From contig JAJFLH010000004.1 of assembly GCA_021772775.1 (NCBI GenBank), forward strand, positions 62,001 to 126,000: a DNA stretch of 64,000 nucleotides, written 5' to 3'. The DNA comes from Mariprofundus sp. (GTDB lineage Bacteria; Pseudomonadota; Zetaproteobacteria; Mariprofundales; Mariprofundaceae). Both the position numbers and the translations under genes were made by a program. Under the pieces are notes generated by a model. That model was not told where the DNA came from and searched no databases. It saw nothing but the letters and a program-made list of their open reading frames with translations. Of the stretch, positions 6,693 through 62,887 are shown piece by piece. Numbering within the stretch: the first letter of the stretch is position 1; each line of letters opens with the position of its first letter.

Positions 6693-7604
6693 ATGAATCG
6701 GTTGGCAAGCCTAGAGGTTACCCAAGATGAGGGGCCGGAGGTCATGCCGCAAGAAAACCTGGCTAGCTATGAGAAAATCATAGAAAAGCATGGACTAAGC
6801 GACAGCAAAGTAGAAAGCATCATCACCAAATATTTGCAGGAGAAAGAGCTCAAACCTTATCACGCTGAGCTGATTAAACTGCAGCAACATCTCGATAACA
6901 CAAAGCAGCGCATGATTATCCTTTTTGAAGGGCGTGATGCGGCAGCCAAGGGTGGCACCATTCGTCGTGTGACCCGTTATATGAATGAAAAACATTACCG
7001 TACTATAGCTTTGGGGAAACCTACAGAAGAGCAGTGCACTCAATGGTTCTTCCAGAAGTATATCTCCCAGTTTCCATGTGGTGGAGAAGTCGTTCTGTTT
7101 GACCGCAGCTGGTACAACCGAGCCATGGTTGAGCCGGTATTCGGCTTCTGCACACCTGAAGAGTATAAACAATTTATGCGGGGCGTAGTTGGTTTTGAGA
7201 AAGATATCACACGCCAGGGCACGATCCTTGTGAAACTCTATTTTAGTGTGAGTAAAGACGCCCAGAAAGCCCGTTTTGATCGCCGTACAACTGATCCTCT
7301 CAGGCAGTGGAAACTCTCTGAGGTGGATATGCAGGCGCAAGAGCGCTGGGATGATTTTACCAAGATGAAATATGAGATGCTCAAACGTACACATTCAAGT
7401 TCTTCCCCTTGGACTGTTATTCGTTCGATTGATAAACACAAAGCGCATTTGAATGTGTTTAAAGTGATCCTTAATGCAGTCGATTATGAAGGGCACAGTG
7501 AAAAGCTGGACTTTGTACCTGATGATAAAGTTGTGATTTCCGGAGCACGGGAGATTGAGATTATGAACAAACAGAGATTAAGGCGTGGTAAATTTATTGG
7601 TTAA
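6693..7604 (+). CDS. ppk2: Polyphosphate kinase 2 (PPK2), second copy, altered Walker A loop
   Basis: 303 residues, closely similar to the first copy along its whole length: Walker B FDRSWYNRA, lid FDRRTTDPLRQWKLSEVD, tail VPDDKVVISGAREIEIM. The Walker A loop reads GRDAAAKGGT, where the first copy has GRDAAGKGGT, so the glycine before the Lys is Ala. The N-terminal 30 residues differ most between the copies. The start is supported by AGGAG about 10 nt upstream. It has its own promoter-like box and leader, so it can be expressed apart from copy 1. It may differ in substrate or direction; this is inference only. Confidence 0.93.
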   Translation: MNRLASLEVTQDEGPEVMPQENLASYEKIIEKHGLSDSKVESIITKYLQEKELKPYHAELIKLQQHLDNTKQRMIILFEGRDAAAKGGTIRRVTRYMNEKHYRTIALGKPTEEQCTQWFFQKYISQFPCGGEVVLFDRSWYNRAMVEPVFGFCTPEEYKQFMRGVVGFEKDITRQGTILVKLYFSVSKDAQKARFDRRTTDPLRQWKLSEVDMQAQERWDDFTKMKYEMLKRTHSSSSPWTVIRSIDKHKAHLNVFKVILNAVDYEGHSEKLDFVPDDKVVISGAREIEIMNKQRLRRGKFIG

Positions 7605-22841: not shown

Positions 22842-23384
22842 ATGCCATTAGGAGAAGAATTTAACGGTATACCAATGGAGTCATTAATTGGTGCGCCACT
22901 AAAAGCAGCAAGTGATGCCAATTTACAGTTGGCACAAACAACATCAAACTTTATTAACGAGGTCGGGTTTGATGGCGATAATGTGAGAACCGCTAGTTTT
23001 GCTTATACTGTAGATAATAAACAGCAAATTATTGATGTGCCTCTATTGGCAGTTGTGCAGATTCCAAGCTTAAAAGTTGATCTGGTTGATATCACGTTTG
23101 ATATGGAGATCAAAACATCTGAGTCCACCAAATCAACTAAAGATCAGAAATTAGAGTTCGCAGCAAAAGCGAAATATAGCGCAGGTCTATTTAGTGTTGA
23201 AGCAAGCGTGTCAGGCTCAGTTGCTTCTCATCAGGAAAATACCCGTAGTACAGATAAATCTGCTAAATATCATGTTCAGGTAAAAGCTACAGATAGCGGC
23301 ATGCCTGAAGGCTTAGCAAGAGTTCTGGATATAATGAACAGGGCAATTGTTCCTCCAGAGGCAGGAGCAGCACCAGCATCATAA
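22842..23384 (+). CDS. DUF2589 domain protein
   Basis: 180 residues matching the DUF2589 layout: an N-terminal helical stretch (ESLIGAPLKAASDANLQLAQ, TTSNFINEVGF), then a beta-rich part around VDNKQQIIDVPLLAVVQIPS and LKVDLVDITFDMEI, and a late strand before a short helix (GLARVLDIMNRAI). The function of the family is not established. No signal peptide. AAGGAG lies upstream. A similar but diverged protein is encoded at 23724. Neighbours encode hydrolases, so a carrier or structural role for a secretion-like system is possible but unproven. Confidence 0.75.
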   Translation: MPLGEEFNGIPMESLIGAPLKAASDANLQLAQTTSNFINEVGFDGDNVRTASFAYTVDNKQQIIDVPLLAVVQIPSLKVDLVDITFDMEIKTSESTKSTKDQKLEFAAKAKYSAGLFSVEASVSGSVASHQENTRSTDKSAKYHVQVKATDSGMPEGLARVLDIMNRAIVPPEAGAAPAS

Positions 23385-23395
23385 GCTAGAGATGG

Positions 23396-23432
23396 ACAAT
23401 ACGCCTTTAAATAATGTTTAAAGGCGTATTGT
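23396..23432. terminator. Perfect 16-bp inverted repeat with 5-nt loop
   Basis: Arms at 23396-23411 and 23417-23432, perfectly complementary, loop TAATG, then GTTTGTTT. It would end the DUF2589 transcript or protect its 3' end, separating that gene from the next one. Confidence 0.75.
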
Positions 23433-23456
23433 TTGTTTAGATCACGGAGGAGCGAA

Positions 23457-23711
23457 GTGGAAAAATCATTTGCATTATCAGATATCAAATGTGTGAAACG
23501 TATTACTGTTGGTAATATTGACCCCAATAACCCCATGCTAGATGAGAAGAAAAATGAACAGATAACGATGTTAAATAATTATTTAAATGGCTATCCCAAA
23601 GGCAAAATTATCGGGAAAGATGTGAGTTTTGGTGTGTTCCAAATGGGTGAGCATCAATTAACCATGCAATCAACAACTTATCATGTCGGATTTGAAAGAC
23701 AAATAGGATAA
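23457..23711 (+). CDS. Small protein of unknown function (84 aa)
   Basis: GTG start at 23457 chosen because GGAGG lies 6 nt upstream; an ATG eight codons earlier has none. A soluble mixed protein without signal peptide or membrane segment; visible stretches are ALSDIKCVKRITVGN and GKDVSFGVFQMGEHQL. I do not recognise it. It lies 12 nt before the second DUF2589-like gene and is likely co-transcribed with it. Confidence 0.65.
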   Translation: MEKSFALSDIKCVKRITVGNIDPNNPMLDEKKNEQITMLNNYLNGYPKGKIIGKDVSFGVFQMGEHQLTMQSTTYHVGFERQIG

Positions 23712-23723
23712 AGGACTATAAAT

Positions 23724-24272
23724 ATGGGATTATTATTAGATAACGTATTAAAGGGAATTCACAATTCAGTTATTGAAGCTCAGAAGATATCTGAACAACA
23801 GCATATGCGGGCTTTAGGGCGCTATTTTTATCTGAATAAAAATAAAGAGAAGATGGAGAAAGAGGGTGTTCAGATTGATGATTTGGGCATGCCAAAAAGT
23901 ATTGAAATAAAATTACCTTTTGCTGAAGGTAATAAAGTTAATTACAAGGATGTCGATATTCCTTTAATTGCCTTGAGCCCTCCCTCATCACTGAAAATAA
24001 AAGGTATGAAAGTATCTTTTGAAGCATCGTTAATGGGGGTGAATAAACAGGAAGAGGAAAAGGGCTTTTTCAAATACTTTAAGAATCATGAAAACAGTGA
24101 AGCTTATGGAAGTGAAGATAAAACAACAAAGGGCCCTATTGTCCTAGATTTAAGCGGCGGTGGTGGTAAAAAGTCTGGAACGGCGAAGATAGAAATAGAA
24201 TTTGTTAATGATGATGTGCCTGAAACATTTGCACGTATTAATGATCATATTGTCAAAAGCTTCCCTTTTTAA
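23724..24272 (+). CDS. Second DUF2589-like protein
   Basis: 182 residues. The order of segments mirrors the protein at 22842: helical N-terminus, then a VDIPLIALSPPSSLKIKGMK core against IDVPLLAVVQIPSLKVDL in the first, then a C-terminal strand and helix (VPETFARINDHIVKSF against MPEGLARVLDIMNRAI). Identity is low, so it is an old paralogue or a relative of the family. A Gly-rich segment (SGGGGKKSG) lies near residue 150. No signal peptide. Function unknown. Confidence 0.65.
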   Translation: MGLLLDNVLKGIHNSVIEAQKISEQQHMRALGRYFYLNKNKEKMEKEGVQIDDLGMPKSIEIKLPFAEGNKVNYKDVDIPLIALSPPSSLKIKGMKVSFEASLMGVNKQEEEKGFFKYFKNHENSEAYGSEDKTTKGPIVLDLSGGGGKKSGTAKIEIEFVNDDVPETFARINDHIVKSFPF

Positions 24273-24334
24273 ATGACTCGATGTAACAAATTTGACCATT
24301 ATCACGCCCTTTATCTGGGCTGCATTTTTTATAA

Positions 24335-24529
24335 ATGAAGAAAGATATGTATAGCCATAAAGATGAGATCAGTTATGAAAGAGAAGCTGGCTATTTTGAC
24401 AGTTTTCAACGCTCCAATGGGAAATCATTTATAAGTATGACAGCTATCAGCTTAGAGAAAGAGCAACTGACTATAAGTAGCGAACTTCAATTGTCGGTGT
24501 TCTATGCTAAAGCAATCTGGTGCAAGTAA
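24335..24529 (+). CDS. Doubtful small ORF (64 aa)
   Basis: An open frame in the 302-nt gap between the second DUF2589-like gene and the amidase. No good ribosome site, no recognisable motif, and a weak hairpin with T run (about 24305-24330) lies directly before it. It may be a remnant or not a gene at all; nothing else is seen in this gap. Confidence 0.25.
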   Translation: MKKDMYSHKDEISYEREAGYFDSFQRSNGKSFISMTAISLEKEQLTISSELQLSVFYAKAIWCK

Positions 24530-24574
24530 GTTTTTGTGCCGGGAATTATTTAAAACTCAGCGGAGAGAGGGACG

Positions 24575-25240
24575 ATGAAAATAGCAATTTGTGCGGGTCA
24601 CCATGAAGATGCCAAAGGAGCAGAAAATACGCGATACAACTTAAATGAATATGATGAGGCTTGTAAAATCATTCCATTTTTAGAAACTGAACTTATTGCA
24701 ATGGGACATTCTATTTCTATTTTATCAGGCAGATTGGGAAGCAAAGTAAGAAAAATCAACGCAGGAAATTTTGATCTTGCCCTCGACCTGCATTTTAATG
24801 CTGATTATGATCATCTTGATCCAGATGACTTGGATGATGAGCGAGGCCATGGTTGTATGGTGATGTATTGTCCGAAGGCATTCAACTATGGCGATGCTGA
24901 ACCACAAAGTACCCGCAGAAGTCAGGCAAACCAAATGTCGGCAGCTATGTCAGGAGTTATTGAAAATCGTAATCTGGGAGGTCGTCCAGGCTGGTATTGG
25001 GGAAATAACCCTCCAGAAAAGAAAGATTATTTTTTGCGCAAAACAAATTGTACCGCTTTTATACCTGAATTCGGTTATATTGATAATAATGGCTTCGCTT
25101 CCACATGGCTGGTGGATGCAGAGAGGCATGCCAAATCAGCTCAGGCTGTAGCTGAAGGAGAGAAGGTGGGGATAGTGAGACATGCTAAATTGGCTCATGC
25201 TGTAGCTAAAGGGGTGGGAGCGGCATTCTCGAAGCAATAA
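24575..25240 (+). CDS. N-acetylmuramoyl-L-alanine amidase, Amidase_3 type
   Basis: 221 residues; GGAGAGAGGG lies before the ATG. The zinc amidase layout is visible: first ligand His9 in AICAGHHED, a likely Glu ligand at 25 or 28, third ligand His73 in LALDLHFNAD, and catalytic-type Glu165 in FIPEFGYIDN. The family cuts the amide between muramic acid and the peptide of peptidoglycan. There is no signal peptide, as in phage lysins and some exported effectors, so delivery is open. The last 45 residues hold a short near-duplication (RHAKSAQAVAEG and RHAKLAHAVAKG). Confidence 0.8.
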   Translation: MKIAICAGHHEDAKGAENTRYNLNEYDEACKIIPFLETELIAMGHSISILSGRLGSKVRKINAGNFDLALDLHFNADYDHLDPDDLDDERGHGCMVMYCPKAFNYGDAEPQSTRRSQANQMSAAMSGVIENRNLGGRPGWYWGNNPPEKKDYFLRKTNCTAFIPEFGYIDNNGFASTWLVDAERHAKSAQAVAEGEKVGIVRHAKLAHAVAKGVGAAFSKQ

Positions 25241-25294
25241 TAAGGCATATTCGGAGGTATAGAGTCTCCGTTTGCTTCCTGACGAGGCGCGAAT

Positions 25295-25327
25295 ATCAAA
25301 CACGATTGTGTTTGATGTTTTCTTTTC
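25295..25327 (+). terminator. Terminator after the amidase gene
   Basis: ATCAAACAC-GATT-GTGTTTGAT, perfect 9-bp stem followed by GTTTTCTTTTC. The rest of the 318-nt gap to the next gene holds only a possible TATAAT at 25377-25382. Confidence 0.75.
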
Positions 25328-25558
25328 TAAGTCATTGATGAAATGAATCAAAGACGGCTAATATCATGGCTTATGATATAATGATAAACTGATTGATTAC
25401 AGTAGAAAATGTTCAATCAGTTGAATCCAATAAAAGCTATTCCCATCCAGTAAAAAACAGTGAATTCGAATGTTTAAAGTATAGTCATAATTTATATTTT
25501 CTGCGTAGGTCAACGCATGGCTCTAAGCAGTGTTCACTGCGTTATAACGGAGGAAACA

Positions 25559-27316
25559 ATGGGTGGGAAGAGAAAGAATATTATTATTTGTGCCGATGGA
25601 ACCGGTAATAAAGGTGGATATACTCCTGACTCTAATGTTTACAAAATTTATAAAGCTATCGAGAAAGACTTAAACAGTAGCGCGACACAATGCGATGTTA
25701 GTGAACAGATTATATTTTATGAAAATGGCGTTGGCACGAGTCAGCGACAACTTATCCAGGCTTTGTCAGGTGGATTCGGTTTTGGTTTTGGCAAAAATGT
25801 TTGTGAGTTATACAAGTTCCTGGCGCGAAATTACGAGCCAGGAGACCGGGTCTATTTGTTCGGCTTTAGCCGTGGCGCTTCTACTATCAGAGCATTCAAT
25901 GGCTTTATCCATGCCTGTGGTTTAGTTGATGGTAGTGCCCGTAGGCTTTCAGATCGAGATTTAGATGTGAGAGTTGAAGAAGCTTTTAATGCCTATCGGT
26001 GGGAAGGCATTAAAAGGAAATGGTGGCATAGGCTATCCAAATGGTTATGGCGAAAGAAAGGTTCACGTAGTGCAGAAGAGTTAAAGTTTTCTGCAGATTG
26101 CCATGGTGTTATCGAGATCCATTTTACAGGTGTCTGGGATACAGTTGTAGCACTGGGGTTTCCCACAAGAACAGAAATTATTTCTCCGGTGTCTGCAATC
26201 TTGCAGATAATTTTTACGCTATTTGGACGAATATCAAGCTGGTTTTCTCCTCACATGTTTTATAATTATGAGTTAACCGAAAACCAAAGATATGCATTTC
26301 AAGCTTTGGCTATTGATGATGAACGCACTGCTTTTTGGCCCGTATTATGGGATGAGAATGCTTCTCCCAACACTGCTGTAGAACAGGTCTGGTTCGCAGG
26401 TATGCACTCCAATGTCGGCGGAGGATACAACCGGTCAGGGCTGGCCAGTGTCCCCCTCTACTGGATGATGGGAAAAGCACAGGCATCGGGCCTTATCTTT
26501 GAAGAGGGAGGCCTTAAAAAGGCGCGAAACGATAGTCATGTTCATGGCTGTATGTACGATTCCAGAGGTGGTGCGGCTACATTTTATCGTTATCATCCAA
26601 GGGATGTGGAAGCGCTCTGTCAAGGTGATGGAAAATCACTCTTAAAGGCAGGGAGAGCTAAATTTCACTATAGTGTCATTGAAAGGTTAAGGCACAGAAC
26701 TGCAAATTATGCACCACTGTTGATGCCTAATAAATTTGAAATCGTAAAAGATGAGATTCAAGATGACCTGTCACTTAATACCACATCACAAGAAGTTGAT
26801 CTGGCAGCTCATCATCGATGCAAAAGTATTAATAATAAAATTAAACGATATGTTAAACTAAGAAAGTTTCTCTACGACTTTATGCTTTTCTTAACACTGT
26901 TTGTACTCAATATTGCATATATATACTGGACTGCTCCTGAACCAATAGCACGAAGTGGGTTTATGGGAGATGTTGCAGATGTTCTTGACTATTTTTTGCC
27001 CAGTTTTTTTACCGGAATTATTGAAATAGCAGTCATTCAAAATCCGCTCTGGCTGTTTGGCTGGATGGCGGTTTTAGTCATATACATATGGGTTCGATCT
27101 TTCGCTCGAAGTGCAACGACAGAAGCTTGTCAGGATAAACGCCGTTTAGTTGTTATGGCATGTGAGAACAAGTGGAGTGATATACCGGTTTCAATGGCTG
27201 TAATCAAACAAGGGGAGCCTGTCCGACCTGTTCAAGCGACTCTTAGCACAAACTTAAATTCCAACGGTGTTAACGAGGATGGATATTATTATGTTTCACA
27301 GTCCTCCAAAAGGTAA
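25559..27316 (+). CDS. DUF2235 alpha/beta-hydrolase (phospholipase-like) with C-terminal membrane segments
   Basis: 585 residues from ATG 25559, preceded by GGAGG at 5 nt; an in-frame ATG 14 codons upstream lacks one. The DUF2235 domain fills about 1-430: start motif IIICADGTGN, nucleophile Ser104 in FGFSRGAS, Asp194 in GVWDTVVALG and His283 in GMHSNVGGGY form the likely triad. Two hydrophobic segments follow at about 438-458 and 483-513. Family members include type VI secretion phospholipases (Tle1-like), but no secretion genes are in this window. The membrane tail suggests it acts at a membrane. Confidence 0.82.
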   Translation: MGGKRKNIIICADGTGNKGGYTPDSNVYKIYKAIEKDLNSSATQCDVSEQIIFYENGVGTSQRQLIQALSGGFGFGFGKNVCELYKFLARNYEPGDRVYLFGFSRGASTIRAFNGFIHACGLVDGSARRLSDRDLDVRVEEAFNAYRWEGIKRKWWHRLSKWLWRKKGSRSAEELKFSADCHGVIEIHFTGVWDTVVALGFPTRTEIISPVSAILQIIFTLFGRISSWFSPHMFYNYELTENQRYAFQALAIDDERTAFWPVLWDENASPNTAVEQVWFAGMHSNVGGGYNRSGLASVPLYWMMGKAQASGLIFEEGGLKKARNDSHVHGCMYDSRGGAATFYRYHPRDVEALCQGDGKSLLKAGRAKFHYSVIERLRHRTANYAPLLMPNKFEIVKDEIQDDLSLNTTSQEVDLAAHHRCKSINNKIKRYVKLRKFLYDFMLFLTLFVLNIAYIYWTAPEPIARSGFMGDVADVLDYFLPSFFTGIIEIAVIQNPLWLFGWMAVLVIYIWVRSFARSATTEACQDKRRLVVMACENKWSDIPVSMAVIKQGEPVRPVQATLSTNLNSNGVNEDGYYYVSQSSKR

Positions 27317-29296: not shown

Positions 29297-30231
29297 ATGT
29301 TCCACACGCATCTTAGCGATCATAATTGATATGTCATTTCCCACTTGCATGGAAAGTTCAGTCGACGTGAGGTAGCTCGCTGAATAGGCAGACATCATAC
29401 CGTGAATTGAATCGCAATGGCAGCCCTCACAGCCGATACTGGTACTATTTTATAGACCCTATGGTTCGTAAGCGAAACCATCAGTCCAAACATCATTACA
29501 AACGATATAACAACAGATTGTATCAGTACGTTTGTCATCGAATTCGACAAGACTGGTCACCAGAACAGATCAGTAATTATTTAAAGAAAGAGTATCCCGA
29601 TGATTTAGAGATGAGTGTCAGCACAGAAGGTATTTATCGTTGGTTATATGAAGATACCATTGTTGGCGGAGAGTTGCATAAACACCTGCGTGGTTGCCAT
29701 AAAAAGAGGGAAAACAGCGTAGATACGGATATTTGCGTGGATTAATTCCAGGCCGAGTTAGCATTCATGAACGCCCTGAAGATATTGATTTACGTAACCG
29801 GATTGGCGATTGGGAGGGTGACACTGCAGTAGGCAGAAGGCGGTATAGCTACTCATGTGGAACGCAGTAGCAGGTATCTGATTGCTGCACGGCTGACAGA
29901 TAAAACGGCCAGTACATTCACAACTCAGACAACCAAAGCTTTCAGGGTGATTCCTCATGCTTTCAGGCACACCCTTATGTTGGATAAAGGGAAGGAAAAT
30001 GCATACTGTCTATTTCGCTGATCCGTACTCTTCATGACAACGTGGTTTAAATGAAAATACTAATGGTTTATTGCGACAGTATTTTCCTAAAGGGACTAGT
30101 TTTGAAGACATAACCGATGAAGAATTTGCCGAGGCGGTTCGAAAGATTAATCATAGACCTAGCAAGTGCCTCGGATATCTAAGGTCTCACGAAGCCTTCA
30201 ATTCGGCTAAAAGTGGTGCACTTACAACTTG
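29297..30231 (+). pseudogene. IS30-family transposase, disrupted
   Basis: Pieces in different frames line up with an IS30 transposase. First an N-terminal HTH (FHTHLSDHN, stop, then HLHGKFSRREVA). Next RELNRNG-type text and a long clean frame at 29407-29745 (DWSPEQISNYLKKEYP, STEGIYRWLYED). Then RIGDWEGDTAVG of the DDE domain, GTSFEDITDEEFAEAV and NHRPSKCLGY at the end. At least four frame changes or stops interrupt it. The ATG at 29297 has AGGAG 9 nt upstream. Confidence 0.85.
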
Positions 30232-31798: not shown

Positions 31799-34057
31799 AT
31801 GTTTATGAAATTTAATTCAAAAGAAATACTTTTATGGGGTAATCATAATAAAAAACTAACTTTAGTCTGTTCTGTGATTTTACTGCTGAATATTACAACG
31901 TCTGTTTCTGCATCAGAGCATGAGGGTGTGGCAGGACAAAATACGGAAATAAAAAATTATCTCACACTACATTTGAATAGTGGAAAAATGGCCAACTATG
32001 GGGCAACCCCTTGGTATACTACCGATGTTTTGCTTGGTGCAAATAAAATGAAGTTTGCTTTGGATAGCGGCTCAAACTTCACATGGGCAACTTCAGCTTT
32101 GTGCATGACGGAAGCCTGTGATGCACAATTAAAAGTTAGCTCAAATCAGGAGGGCTTTTCCTGGCTCGATCCTTCAATCGTATCTCATAGTTTTGGGCCG
32201 TGGGGAACAATGCAGACGAGAACGGCGACGGTGAATTTTAAAATACCTGGAGCAGGAGGGCATACCGGAGAGATCGATCAAAAACTTACATTTTATGCTG
32301 CTGTAGATTACACGGGGAAAAAATTTCAGGATCTGACTTGGGGTGGGGGCATTAGTTTCCCATCGGAGAGCAGTGCCGTAGCAGGAGAAGGAGATAATAG
32401 ATCAGCTTTTTTAGTGCAGAAGCTTTTACAGGTAGGTGATATTACGCAACCTTCGTTTGCCGTTTATACCGATAGGAAACGTCATTATGGAGAGTTCTAT
32501 ATTGGAGGCGAAGACAAATCGAAATACAATGAGGCTTCGGAAGTCATATTGAAACCTAACCGGACGGGATCAATTGGTTTTATCTGGGGAACTAGCCTTC
32601 ATAAAGCAAGTTTGGGAAAGCAAGCTCTTCCATTGTTGAATAACGCCCGTTTTTATCTTGATTCTGGGTCCTCTCGCTTTAAAGGAGACAGCAACTTTAT
32701 TGTCCCCATTTTGGAGTTTCTATATCAACAGACATATAATGATCATGGCAGACAGGCTCCTGTGTTTGAAAAAGTGTTTGATGATCAGGGTAACTGGACC
32801 GGATTGGCCTATGTGAAAGGCATGAAGCCGTATAATGAGCTACCTGATTTTAATCTGACAATAGGCCAGAGCTGTAAAGGAATAGAAGGTAAGGCAGCCA
32901 TGGTTTCCCTTAGCCCGAAACAATATTCATATAAAGTGAAAGAGGGAGCCCAAAAAGGGCGCTGGGTTGTGGCTTTTTCTGTTCTCGATGGGGTTGGCGG
33001 ACTGTTGGTTGGCTCTACCTTCATGGATCTGTTGTTTACAAAGTTTGAGTATAAATACGATGCTAATTCAAATGAATTAACTCAGGGTAATATGTATCTC
33101 TATCAGAAGCGACAAGGTGAAGGCCCTTCTTCTTTTCAGTGCGTGGATATTCCAGAAAAATCCAAAGTGTTTAGCCCTCTCTCGGGCACTTGGTACAACT
33201 CATACTGCTCTCAGGTGGAACTAGCTGTTCATGAGGACGGGAAAATCAAAGGTGTCTATACATCACACACAGGATCTGTTGGCTCTTCCGATGTTATTGG
33301 CTTTTTAGGGCAACCGAAGGCATTTAAAAAAGGTTCTTCTGCAATTGTGGGGATTCCTGTTGCTATGGGAATTCAATGGCGTTTGATCACTGAAAAGCAA
33401 ACAGATGCAAATGCAACTTGGCATTGGATGTCCGGTTTTTCGGGGCAATATCAACCAGCCCAGCAGATCACTGAAGCAGGGCAAATGACATACTCTCTGC
33501 CAGAGACCTTATATCTTCTCAATGTGTTGAATGCAACGTCTCAGTTTCCTGGTTATAATGCTACATCGGCCTCTAAATTGTGGCCTGAGAATCTTAGCTT
33601 TCATAAAATCCCCGCTTCTTACTGTGCACCGGTTACACCACCAAAACGCCATGCTTTTACTCCATCAGCAAAGGATCATATCTCTGGAATATGGAAAAAT
33701 ATCAAAAACCAAGATGATGTTCTGGAAATGAGGTTGGATCCTGAGACCTTTGCTATAACGGGCACCCTGAAGAAAAATAATATTATATATAGGCTAACCG
33801 GTTTAGGGGACCCAATTGCAGTTAAATCACATACTAAACCATATGCTAAATTAGATAAGGTGTTTCAGCAGGGCGTAGTGCTCAGTTTCTCGTCTAAGAT
33901 AAAAGGTGAAAAGCTTATATCAATGGTTGGAGGGATCGATTTGACTTCAACCAAGCATATGTACTTATGGGTGTCGGAACTATCTTCAACGACCTGGACG
34001 AATCGTTTTACCCAGTCGACGTTTGATCAACAGCTTTGGACGAAAAAATCAAAATAA
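31799..34057 (+). CDS. Secreted pepsin-like aspartic protease fused to two avidin-like domains
   Basis: 752 residues. A signal peptide with a long n-region (hydrophobic core LVCSVILLLNITT, cut after SVSA) is followed by a two-lobed pepsin (A1) layout: catalytic Asp89 in FALDSGSNFTWA, second Asp288 in FYLDSGSSRFKG, and between them FAVYTDRKRHYGEFYIGGED, which matches the pepsin segment before the second lobe. From about 461 an avidin-like domain starts: LSGTWYN, IKGVYTSHTGSVG, AMGIQWRL and WMSGFSGQYQ follow the streptavidin order, though the Trp of the TQWLL strand is Leu/Tyr. From about 628 a second, more diverged unit repeats it (ISGIWKN, MYLWVSELSSTTW). Bacterial pepsins are rare; this fusion is not one I know. 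32 nt before the ATPase gene. Confidence 0.78.
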   Translation: MFMKFNSKEILLWGNHNKKLTLVCSVILLLNITTSVSASEHEGVAGQNTEIKNYLTLHLNSGKMANYGATPWYTTDVLLGANKMKFALDSGSNFTWATSALCMTEACDAQLKVSSNQEGFSWLDPSIVSHSFGPWGTMQTRTATVNFKIPGAGGHTGEIDQKLTFYAAVDYTGKKFQDLTWGGGISFPSESSAVAGEGDNRSAFLVQKLLQVGDITQPSFAVYTDRKRHYGEFYIGGEDKSKYNEASEVILKPNRTGSIGFIWGTSLHKASLGKQALPLLNNARFYLDSGSSRFKGDSNFIVPILEFLYQQTYNDHGRQAPVFEKVFDDQGNWTGLAYVKGMKPYNELPDFNLTIGQSCKGIEGKAAMVSLSPKQYSYKVKEGAQKGRWVVAFSVLDGVGGLLVGSTFMDLLFTKFEYKYDANSNELTQGNMYLYQKRQGEGPSSFQCVDIPEKSKVFSPLSGTWYNSYCSQVELAVHEDGKIKGVYTSHTGSVGSSDVIGFLGQPKAFKKGSSAIVGIPVAMGIQWRLITEKQTDANATWHWMSGFSGQYQPAQQITEAGQMTYSLPETLYLLNVLNATSQFPGYNATSASKLWPENLSFHKIPASYCAPVTPPKRHAFTPSAKDHISGIWKNIKNQDDVLEMRLDPETFAITGTLKKNNIIYRLTGLGDPIAVKSHTKPYAKLDKVFQQGVVLSFSSKIKGEKLISMVGGIDLTSTKHMYLWVSELSSTTWTNRFTQSTFDQQLWTKKSK

Positions 34058-59640: not shown

Positions 59641-60139
59641 CTCTGAGTTATCTTGACTAAGAAAAAAGTCTGCGCATTCGCGCCGTCTTTTTTGATGTCG
59701 CATGAATCTTCTTTCTTAATAAGCCAAATGGCCTGTATTACGAAGGAGTTTAACAATTTAGCTGTGGCCTTCGTGTTCAGAAGTTCTTAATAGATGATTG
59801 ATGTTCGGTATGTTGGCCTAGCCCCAGTCTGCCTTCTGTATCAAGTAGTATCTATATTTGCCGGGGACATAATACAGAGCTATTCGATAGTCACGTGAGT
59901 TGTGTGGTCCCAGAATTTCAGATCTTTTGACTCAGAATTTTATCATGTGATGCTTCTACTGCTCTTGTGTTCATTTTTATGGCTGACAAAAGAGAAAAGC
60001 CGGAATGCTACACAGAGTCAAAGACCTAAATAGTGATTAAGTATCTAATCCTAGGTTTTCTCGATGAAGGCTCGCAATCATATTGCGAGCAAGGTTAGTT
60101 ATAACTAAAGTAAGTCATTGTTTTAAGGGAGAGGGAGAT
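59641..60139. other. About 500-nt gap before the FGE-type protein, one hairpin
   Basis: An imperfect hairpin with a T run near 59661-59693 may end the small gene. GCTCGCAAT-CAT-ATTGCGAGC at 60070-60090, a perfect 9-bp stem, lies about 50 nt before the next start and may be a leader structure. No gene seen. Confidence 0.45.
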
Positions 60140-62887
60140 ATGGACTTGTTCAAACGATTCGTACTTTTAATATTATTATTTGTATTTCCAATGCTGAGCT
60201 ATGCTGCTTTGCCACCTGAGGTGCAAAAAGACAGGGCGTTGATGTCTTTTTCTGAACATTTGAAAAATGAGCAATACAAAGAGGCAGAGAAAGATTTTCG
60301 CAAGCTTATTGATTTAAGAGACATACATAAGGTGAAGCTTCCAAGCTCGGTTTATTATTTTGGGGCAGAGACTGTACAGCATACTGGTTACCATCTGTGG
60401 GCAGAGACGCTTCTAACCAAATACATCACTATAGCAGGACAAAAAGGAAAGTATTATACCAAAGCCCTGCAATTACTGGATGTTGTAGAGCCGAAGGCAA
60501 AAGAGGAAAGAGAAAAGAAGGCTGCTAAGAGAAAATTACAAGAGGATTGGGAGAGTAGAGAGAAATCAGCGGCAAAAAGTTTTGATTCTGATTTAAAGCA
60601 GGCACAACATCGACAGCAGAAACAACGTACCCGACTGCCATCCGAAGTTCTTGAGAAGGGGTTTGTGCTAATTCCATCTGGAAGATTTCAGATGGGAGGT
60701 ATTGGAAACGACAATGAACGTCCTATTCACACCGTACAGCTCAAGGCTTTTGCTATGGCGAAGTATGAGGTGACTTTTACCGAGTATGATGCTTATTGTG
60801 ATGCTAAAGGAAAAAGAAAACCTTCTGATAACAACTGGGGTCGTGGAAATCGACCTGTTATTAATGTCAGTTGGCAGGATGCAAAGGAGTATGCCCAATG
60901 GTTGGGGCAACAGAAGGGAAAACGTTTTCGTTTGCCAACAGAGGCTGAATGGGAATATGCGGCTCGAGCAGGGTCGAGGACAACATTTAGCTTTAAATCC
61001 CCTTTAACAATTGGTAAAGCCAATTATGTCGGGGATAGACATCATTTTGCTAATTACTCTTTCACGGACTATGAAAAAAAATCTCCTGGGAAATCAATGT
61101 CGGTTGGCTCATTTCAGCCGAATGCATTTGGTCTCTATGATATTCATGGAAATGTTTCTGAGTGGGTCGAAGATAGCTATCATGATAACTATAAAGGTGC
61201 GCCTTCTGATGGTTCAGCCTGGGAGAGAAGGAATAGTAAGAAGCGAGTGGTTCGCGGGGGAAGCTGGAATAGTCCTTCAGTAACATTGCGTTCATCCAAT
61301 CGACAATATGGGACTAGTGGGAATTGGAACCTAGGTTTTCGGTTGGTTCAAGATATAAGTGAAGAAGTTGAGCTGGAAGCAAGAAAACGCTTTGAAACTG
61401 AAACTGCTGCTGCAAAGAAAAAACAGTCTGACTTGGCGAATCAGCTAGGGCCTGACTTTTTGCATAAAGGATTTGTCATTATTCCATCGAGAAGTGTTCA
61501 GATAGGTGATCATATAATAAAAACTAAACCGTTCGGCATGAGTAGGTTTGAGCTAACGGTGGCAGAATTTACTGAGTTTATTGATGAGGTGCGTAAGCTG
61601 GATACGGAGGGCATTGTTAAACTTTATGGCGGCAAAATTCCAGCCGATAAAGTTGAGGAGGCGAGTGTTGAGATTACAAATTATTTATCTGGTGTGATAG
61701 AAGGCAAGCATGGAACGATGCCTGTGGGGCTTGATACTGGTGGTAATGGATATATAAAGTGGTTGAGTGAAAAAACTGGAAAACATTTTAGACGGCCAAC
61801 GGATGTTGAGTGGGAATATGCAGCTAGAGCAGGAGTAACGACTGATTACTTTTGTGGGAATGATGAAAGTTGTCTAACTGATTATGCCTGGTTTTCAGCG
61901 AACTCAAATCGCAAGATTTATCCAGTCGGCAAAAAGCTGCCAAACCCATTTGGCTTGTATGATGTTTACGGCAACGTTGATGAATACGTAGATGCTGTAT
62001 ATGAGAAGAACAAATATTTAAAAGGTGGAAATGCAATATCAACACCAGAGGGATTTAGGTTTTCTGGACACACATTCGTTGGTAATCCAGGTGTTCGTCT
62101 CGTTCAAGAGTTCACAGAAGAAGAGTTAGAGCAAGAGAAAAAGCGATATGCCAAAGAGAAAGTTGCGAGTTTATTAGCATCGATTGAAATGGCCGATATC
62201 CCCGCTGGAAACTTTATTATGGGGGACGAAAGCAGCAATATTTTTGGTCAGGACGGGGACGAGGATGAGTTGCCAGGACATCCTGTTAATGTTGCTTCTT
62301 TTAAAATCAGTAAGCATGAAATTACTTTTCAAGACTACGATGTTTTTTGTGAACTAACCGGCCGTGAAAAACCGGAATACAGTTCTGATGAACGTGCAGG
62401 CCTCCCTGTGGTAAATGTGAGTTGGGAAGATGCCAAGGCATTCACGAAGTGGTTGAGTGAGATGAGCGGAAAGAGATTTCGTTTACCAACAGAAGCTGAA
62501 TGGGAATATGCATCTCGAGCTGGAACTGACACTAAATATTCATGGGGCAGAAGAGTGGGCAAGAACAGTGCTGTCTGTGATGGCTGCAAAAGTCAGTGGG
62601 ATAAAGAGTCATCGCCTGCTCCTGTAGGTTCTTTTGAAGCCAATGCTTTTGGTTTGAATGATATGCACGGCAATGTCTGGGAGTGGGTTGAGGATTGCTA
62701 TCATGAAAACTATCAAGGTGCCCCTGTTGATGGCACCTCCTGGAGTTCTGATTCATGCAGTGAGCGTGTTATTCGTGGTGGCGGCTGGAGTAGTAAGGCG
62801 GCTGATTTACGATCAGCAAATCGTGGTCGAGTAGCTGCCGATCATCAGGGGAATGATGTCGGTTTCCGAATTGTCCTGGAGCAATGA
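60140..62887 (+). CDS. Secreted protein with TPR-like N-terminus and three FGE-sulfatase-type domains
   Basis: 915 residues from ATG 60140, preceded by GGGAGAGGGAG; an upstream frame extension crosses the hairpin and is rejected. A signal peptide (VLLILLFVFPMLSYA), a helical TPR-like part (about 25-130), a charged coiled coil (about 130-165), then three FGE-sulfatase (SUMF1/EgtB/PvdO-type) domains at about 170-405, 441-660 and 683-915. Domains 1 and 3 have the full RLPTEAEWEYAARAG and GNVSEWVED or GNVWEWVED motifs; domain 2 is degenerate. The cysteine pair used by formylglycine enzymes is absent (RGGSWNSPS, RGGGWSSKA), so a binding or other role is likely. Confidence 0.88.
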   Translation: MDLFKRFVLLILLFVFPMLSYAALPPEVQKDRALMSFSEHLKNEQYKEAEKDFRKLIDLRDIHKVKLPSSVYYFGAETVQHTGYHLWAETLLTKYITIAGQKGKYYTKALQLLDVVEPKAKEEREKKAAKRKLQEDWESREKSAAKSFDSDLKQAQHRQQKQRTRLPSEVLEKGFVLIPSGRFQMGGIGNDNERPIHTVQLKAFAMAKYEVTFTEYDAYCDAKGKRKPSDNNWGRGNRPVINVSWQDAKEYAQWLGQQKGKRFRLPTEAEWEYAARAGSRTTFSFKSPLTIGKANYVGDRHHFANYSFTDYEKKSPGKSMSVGSFQPNAFGLYDIHGNVSEWVEDSYHDNYKGAPSDGSAWERRNSKKRVVRGGSWNSPSVTLRSSNRQYGTSGNWNLGFRLVQDISEEVELEARKRFETETAAAKKKQSDLANQLGPDFLHKGFVIIPSRSVQIGDHIIKTKPFGMSRFELTVAEFTEFIDEVRKLDTEGIVKLYGGKIPADKVEEASVEITNYLSGVIEGKHGTMPVGLDTGGNGYIKWLSEKTGKHFRRPTDVEWEYAARAGVTTDYFCGNDESCLTDYAWFSANSNRKIYPVGKKLPNPFGLYDVYGNVDEYVDAVYEKNKYLKGGNAISTPEGFRFSGHTFVGNPGVRLVQEFTEEELEQEKKRYAKEKVASLLASIEMADIPAGNFIMGDESSNIFGQDGDEDELPGHPVNVASFKISKHEITFQDYDVFCELTGREKPEYSSDERAGLPVVNVSWEDAKAFTKWLSEMSGKRFRLPTEAEWEYASRAGTDTKYSWGRRVGKNSAVCDGCKSQWDKESSPAPVGSFEANAFGLNDMHGNVWEWVEDCYHENYQGAPVDGTSWSSDSCSERVIRGGGWSSKAADLRSANRGRVAADHQGNDVGFRIVLEQ

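Follow-up and report, generated by a model that had tools for sequence, protein, structure and literature searches.

Locus and domain layout

The window analysed here, a 64,000-nucleotide stretch of a Mariprofundus contig, contains a gene encoding a 752-residue protein in which a pepsin-like aspartic protease domain is followed by two avidin-like barrels. Table 1 lists the features of this protein together with the ATPase gene that starts 32 bp downstream of its stop codon and lacks a DNA-binding end; homologous loci are referred to by L numbers. The frame has no internal stops, and the gene is present as a single copy in its own genome. An AlphaFold2 model of the whole protein, obtained with a 56-row family alignment, has a mean pLDDT of 82.8 and a pTM of 0.75, with residues 1–48 below a pLDDT of 50. 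The initial annotation had read the protein as pepsin-like plus avidin-like and had proposed structure prediction with a fold search as a check; profiles and models both upheld that reading, placing the pepsin fold in the N-terminal half and two avidin barrels at the C-terminus, and we hold this anatomy with high confidence.

Table 1. Positions of the fusion gene, its domains and the downstream ATPase gene within the window
Feature	Positions	Strand	Basis
Pepsin–tandem-avidin protein, 752 aa	31799–34057	+	Open frame; 44–47% identity to L014, near full length
Signal-peptide-like N-terminus, residues 1–38	31799–31912	+	KK, hydrophobic stretch, VSA-S; read from sequence
Pepsin-fold domain, residues 51–438	31949–33112	+	Foldseek/VIA, Pfam Asp, invariant motifs
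Avidin barrel 1, residues ~459–609, with ureido-contact residues	33173–33625	+	Profile, alignment, model
Avidin barrel 2, residues 624–752, diverged pocket	33668–34054	+	hhalign to unit 1; model
AAA_16 + TPR (STAND-type) ATPase, 892 aa	34090–36768	+	Pfam

None of 77 other genomes of the same class carries the gene. Its GC content is 0.42, compared with 0.47–0.50 for nusA and an aldolase gene, and this lower value would fit horizontal acquisition. A search for mobile-element or tRNA borders gave no long repeats at 20–38 kb, and the window is free of tRNA genes; scans for promoters and terminators gave site counts not above those of shuffled sequences. PADLOC did not match the fusion or the window ATPase to a known anti-phage system. 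Upstream, a low-GC segment (22842–27316) encodes two DUF2589 proteins, an N-acetylmuramoyl-L-alanine amidase and a Tle1-like phospholipase, possibly effector or defence cargo. A short ORF at 29407–29745 with a weak HTH_32 match resembles a fragment of an IS30-type transposase, and the region from 28 to 31.8 kb has no long ORF and a decayed look. Elsewhere in the window, a 934-aa protein with three FGE-sulfatase stretches is encoded at 60083–62887.

The pepsin-like domain

Residues 51–438 are predicted to form a two-lobed, pepsin-like fold (Foldseek/VIA; best VIA Z 33.6), with cathepsin D, renin and chymosin matching the model at Z 31.7–33.6 over ~320 residues and ~2.9 Å. Pfam Asp (PF00026) matches residues 41–460 with an E-value of 4e-12 and a score of 46.5 bits (cut-off 19.9), and a profile of 40 protease sequences matches chymosin/pepsin with an E-value of 7e-29. 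Queried at full length, the protein had no Pfam match with an E-value of 1 or less, apparently an effect of search filters. Two DSGS motifs, on which a pepsin-type protease had initially been proposed, are present, one per lobe; their aspartates, Asp89 and Asp288, align with the catalytic dyad of chymosin in the profile alignment, and together with Gly91 and Gly290 they are invariant in 40/40 relatives. Equally invariant are the flap FGPWG (132–136; 40/40) and a cysteine pair at 102/107 (40 aligned relatives), and the second psi-loop motif, LVGS at 403–406 in the window protein, is kept as VGS in 40/40. By its DSGS motifs, bilobed fold and profile homology, the domain is a member of peptidase family A1.

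Phe132 of the flap aligns with Tyr75 of pepsin-type enzymes, so that Phe stands in place of Tyr, and in the first psi-loop the window protein has GIS where its relatives mostly have GIG. A Tyr75 flap is typical of family A1 but not required, and Phe75 homologues are filed in A1; two hydrophobic-hydrophobic-Gly psi-loop motifs are conserved in A1 members known or predicted to be active. A 2009 study by Rawlings and Bateman (PMC2761423) describes a second group of bacterial pepsins, from Marinomonas sp. MWYL1 and Sinorhizobium medicae, of which the MWYL1 type (D49, F95) was thought probably inactive, and states that no natural homologue with the Phe75 variant had been shown to be active as of that year. 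The MWYL1 pepsin has the same Phe75 flap as the window protein. Since the sequence from Marinomonas rhizomae (L023) has D49 and F95 at positions identical to those given for MWYL1 in that study, the MWYL1 pepsin very likely belongs to the present protease family, as judged from sequence. The pepsin domain could accordingly be a catalytically dead, peptide-binding pseudoprotease, as Rawlings and Bateman expected of the homologues from Marinomonas and Sinorhizobium, and both Phe75 and the GIS motif of the window protein would agree with this. The retention of both Asp and Gly pairs, of the flap and of the second psi-loop in every aligned relative argues against it, however, as does the intact fold of the predicted model, and the 2009 authors themselves regarded their alignment as uncertain around the missing motif (PMC2761423); we regard a dead protease as quite improbable.

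Other bacterial pepsins differ from the window protein in architecture or location. Those of MWYL1 and S. medicae are said to lack signal peptides, whereas the window protein is fused and apparently exported, and the part of the 2009 paper available mentions no avidin partner for them. A different bacterial pepsin homologue, encoded at L011 (7416–8729, minus strand; 437 aa) with no avidin nearby, has a hydrophobic, signal-like N-terminus, in contrast to the statement in the same source that signal peptides are absent from bacterial pepsins. Bacterial pepsin-fold peptidases also include shewasins A and D of Shewanella, shewasin D being an active, cytosolic enzyme (PMC4814920); they keep Tyr75, where the window protein has Phe, and fall into the other group of the 2009 tree (PMC2761423). 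The paper on shewasin D (PMC4814920) does not mention avidin.

A tandem pair of avidin barrels

In the first avidin unit the motifs GTWYN, GVYTS and WMSGFSGQY follow one another in streptavidin order, as had been recognized initially, and the model shows an eight-stranded barrel fold. Pfam Avidin scores this unit at 23.4–23.5 bits, just below the 24-bit cut-off, and matches 37/37 relatives with E-values of up to 0.1 (best 3e-10). The second unit by itself gave no convincing Pfam or PDB match in sequence searches; profile–profile comparison nevertheless identifies it as a diverged copy of the first (hhalign probability 96.6%, E-value 6e-10), in agreement with the second, diverged unit of the initial annotation. 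Modelled separately, the avidin half has a pLDDT of 87.3 and a pTM of 0.88, and its best match is an engineered single-chain dimeric streptavidin (6s50, 6s4q) with the same relative placement of the barrels (Z 28.5, 235 residues, 2.1 Å); the match covers residues 3–296 of the avidin model, that is, end to end. Single streptavidin chains match barrel 1 with Z ~11.7 over 118 residues. Because the model match and the independently detected internal copy agree, the avidin half is, as modelled, a natural tandem pair in a dimer arrangement, a single-chain avidin pseudodimer. Engineered single-chain dimers and dual-chain avidin likewise carry two barrels per chain; the pair in the window differs from them in being natural, in combining one conserved with one degenerate pocket, and in being attached to a protease.

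The initial annotation knew of no avidin fusion of this kind, but this was wrong: a 2021 survey (PMC8033661) reported fusions of A1 peptidases with avidins of the "extended" and beta6 clades in Pseudomonas fluorescens, P. veronii, Oleiagrimonas, Nitrincola and others. They have the same domain order, pepsin-like and then avidin, and P. veronii (L020) and a Nitrincola species (L052) belong to the family found here. In contrast to the 2021 fusions, the window protein is apparently exported and comes from a small class outside the genera then known. The survey also noted an unidentified C-terminal extension of ~150 residues in the extended-clade avidins (PMC8033661). The evidence presented here says that this extension is a second, diverged avidin barrel, an assignment that appears to be new.

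The ligand pocket

When barrel 1 is compared with streptavidin, the contacts N23, S27, Y43, S45 and W79 are kept in 36–37 of 37 sequences. In all 37, D128 is replaced by Leu, W120 is lost and the tail-binding S88 position is occupied by Trp. At W108 no member has a Trp, in an alignment that is unsure there, as MAFFT misplaces chicken avidin's own Trp; for W92, the HMM alignment and MAFFT give different placements. With D128 and W120 missing, the ureido contact set of biotin-binding avidins stands at four of five in barrel 1 and their aromatic box is incomplete. Barrel 2 of the window protein, aligned to unit 1, lacks equivalents of Y43, S45 and W79, and the pair would thus comprise one retuned and one dead pocket. 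The loss of a biotin-contact Trp had been noticed in the initial annotation, which counted one; the loss stands, but the number is probably two (W108 and W120), with D128 gone as well. Given the loss of D128, W120 and probably W108, the ligand of barrel 1 is probably something other than ordinary biotin, and the early suggestion of another ligand for the avidin part would fit the altered pocket. Relative to earlier reports, this alteration appears to be new.

Two other readings of the avidin half bear on these residues. The pair might be a ligand-free dimerising or anchoring module, as in sea-urchin fibropellin, for which the degenerate pocket of unit 2 and the dimer-like core formed by the pair would speak. 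The pocket of unit 1, however, is near-invariant across lineages, beyond what a purely structural role would need, and we think such a module unlikely. Alternatively, since the pocket could still bind biotin, the avidin might bring the protease to biotinylated proteins, or capture biotin for defence or nutrition, as the 2021 survey suggests: the extended avidins were judged there to resemble potent biotin binders and a defence role was proposed (PMC8033661), and the five conserved contacts agree with this. Against biotin as the ligand stand the uniform loss of D128 and W120, probably joined by that of W108, the Trp at the tail-binding position, and the finding that none of the annotated neighbours of the loci is a biotin gene; guidance by biotin is in our estimate doubtful.

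Pairing of protease and avidin in relatives

Related loci were sought with the protease part alone as query; a scan of genomes gave 45 and whole-genome searches two more. An avidin part is fused or adjacent in 42 of these 47: both parts share one open frame in 20, the avidin is a separate neighbouring gene in another 20, and two are broken fusions, with only a remnant left at L015 and an in-frame stop at L024. The latter, from Vibrio albus, has a TGA (7200–7204) where the first avidin strand otherwise carries a conserved Trp, and its classification as a separate-gene case was rejected. The avidin part is missing from five loci (L025, L044, L050, L051 and L057), in one of which, L057, the sequence ends ~400 bp past the protease fragment; at L048 and L052 the match is confined to the first barrel. 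On the protease tree the fused label changes five times, at least two of the changes being forced by well-supported branches, a count that may be lower because L024 is still labelled as adjacent on that tree. Repeated fusion or splitting with the pairing retained is strong evidence of joint function, and the near-constant pairing appears to be new. A viral origin was rejected: neither viral contigs nor phages yielded relatives, and on plasmids the sole match was a Novosphingobium avidin.

The window protein forms one branch (100% support) with L014, its nearest relative (a Gammaproteobacteria MAG), and L015 (an Anammoxibacter MAG). A hydrophobic stretch is present at the N-termini of both, and the six cysteines of the mature window protein all recur in L014. 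Most other members have no evident signal sequence in the alignment, and the three proteins are apparently an exported branch.

Gene neighbourhoods

Genes for signalling proteins recur next to the module: a PAS-GGDEF protein, or a hybrid kinase with a GGDEF response regulator, adjoins it at 22 loci. This link varies by lineage, L014 having only a convergent hybrid kinase. AAA_16-type ATPases are found at the window, at L056 (a Burkholderiales MAG), and in P. veronii and Sphingosinicella. At L056 a homologue of the window ATPase (28% identity) directly follows the protease and avidin genes, and the L014 locus has no homologue of it. The ATPases of P. veronii and Sphingosinicella carry a LuxR-type DNA-binding end and are encoded ahead of a hydantoinase operon; because AAA_16 is a broad family, the likeness of the window ATPase to these regulators is one of architecture only. 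HyuA/HyuB genes occur at 17 loci: in the sequence retrieved, 13 Pseudomonas and three Sphingomonadales loci show HyuA, HyuB or both as part of a hydantoinase operon, and HyuB lies near L025. The L025 record is labelled as a Bifidobacteriaceae MAG, in a mostly proteobacterial family, and is possibly misbinned. In P. veronii (L061, 8645–11821), the AAA_16-LuxR regulator and the hydantoinase operon come directly after genes of the proline racemase, DHDPS and DAO types, a set resembling hydroxyproline catabolism; a search of the literature did not find a link between hydroxyproline and hydantoinases.

Proposed role

Tentatively, we consider a ligand-controlled regulatory protease, in which a non-biotin ligand bound by barrel 1 directs or switches the protease, to be the most likely role. 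The window protein would be an exported aspartic endopeptidase, probably periplasmic or extracellular, with the avidin pseudodimer as its C-terminus. The pocket of barrel 1, which has lost the Asp that contacts the ring NH, the Trp residues of the lid and the residues that bind the tail, would keep its grip on a ureido carbonyl like that of biotin and may accommodate a small ligand of the cyclic-ureide or lactam type, either free or carried on a protein; barrel 2, with its degenerate pocket, would probably be a structural partner. The predicted folds, the invariant catalytic motifs, the pairing with avidin, the conserved pocket and the signalling and hydantoinase neighbours all point towards this role; Phe at the flap Tyr75 and the variation of the signalling link between lineages count against it. 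The cyclic-ureide idea draws on the residues of the pocket and on gene surroundings limited to Pseudomonas, Sphingomonadales and L025. In most relatives the unit is apparently cytosolic and encoded with signalling proteins or a hydantoinase operon, and in the window's branch it would have moved outside the cytoplasm, a location that speaks against the window protein touching cytosolic partners directly. A broader proposal, which we put forward as speculative and rather unlikely, is that these proteins make up a widespread, so far undescribed class of ligand-switched regulatory proteases. The natural avidin pseudodimer would act as the ligand sensor, its one live pocket having shifted in specificity from biotin to a different cyclic ureide or lactam, and would thereby control a pepsin, attached or partner, within signalling circuits (STAND ATPases, c-di-GMP, histidine kinases).

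Bacterial pepsins thought inactive in 2009 and avidins described in 2021 with an unexplained extension are now tied together; our literature search, incomplete in coverage, found no paper linking these avidins to the Marinomonas pepsins or calling the extension a second barrel. The extension thereby gains an identity as a second barrel, so that the avidin half is a natural counterpart of engineered single-chain avidin dimers, and a conserved protease partner, together with the conserved neighbouring genes, makes the biological role of bacterial avidins testable.
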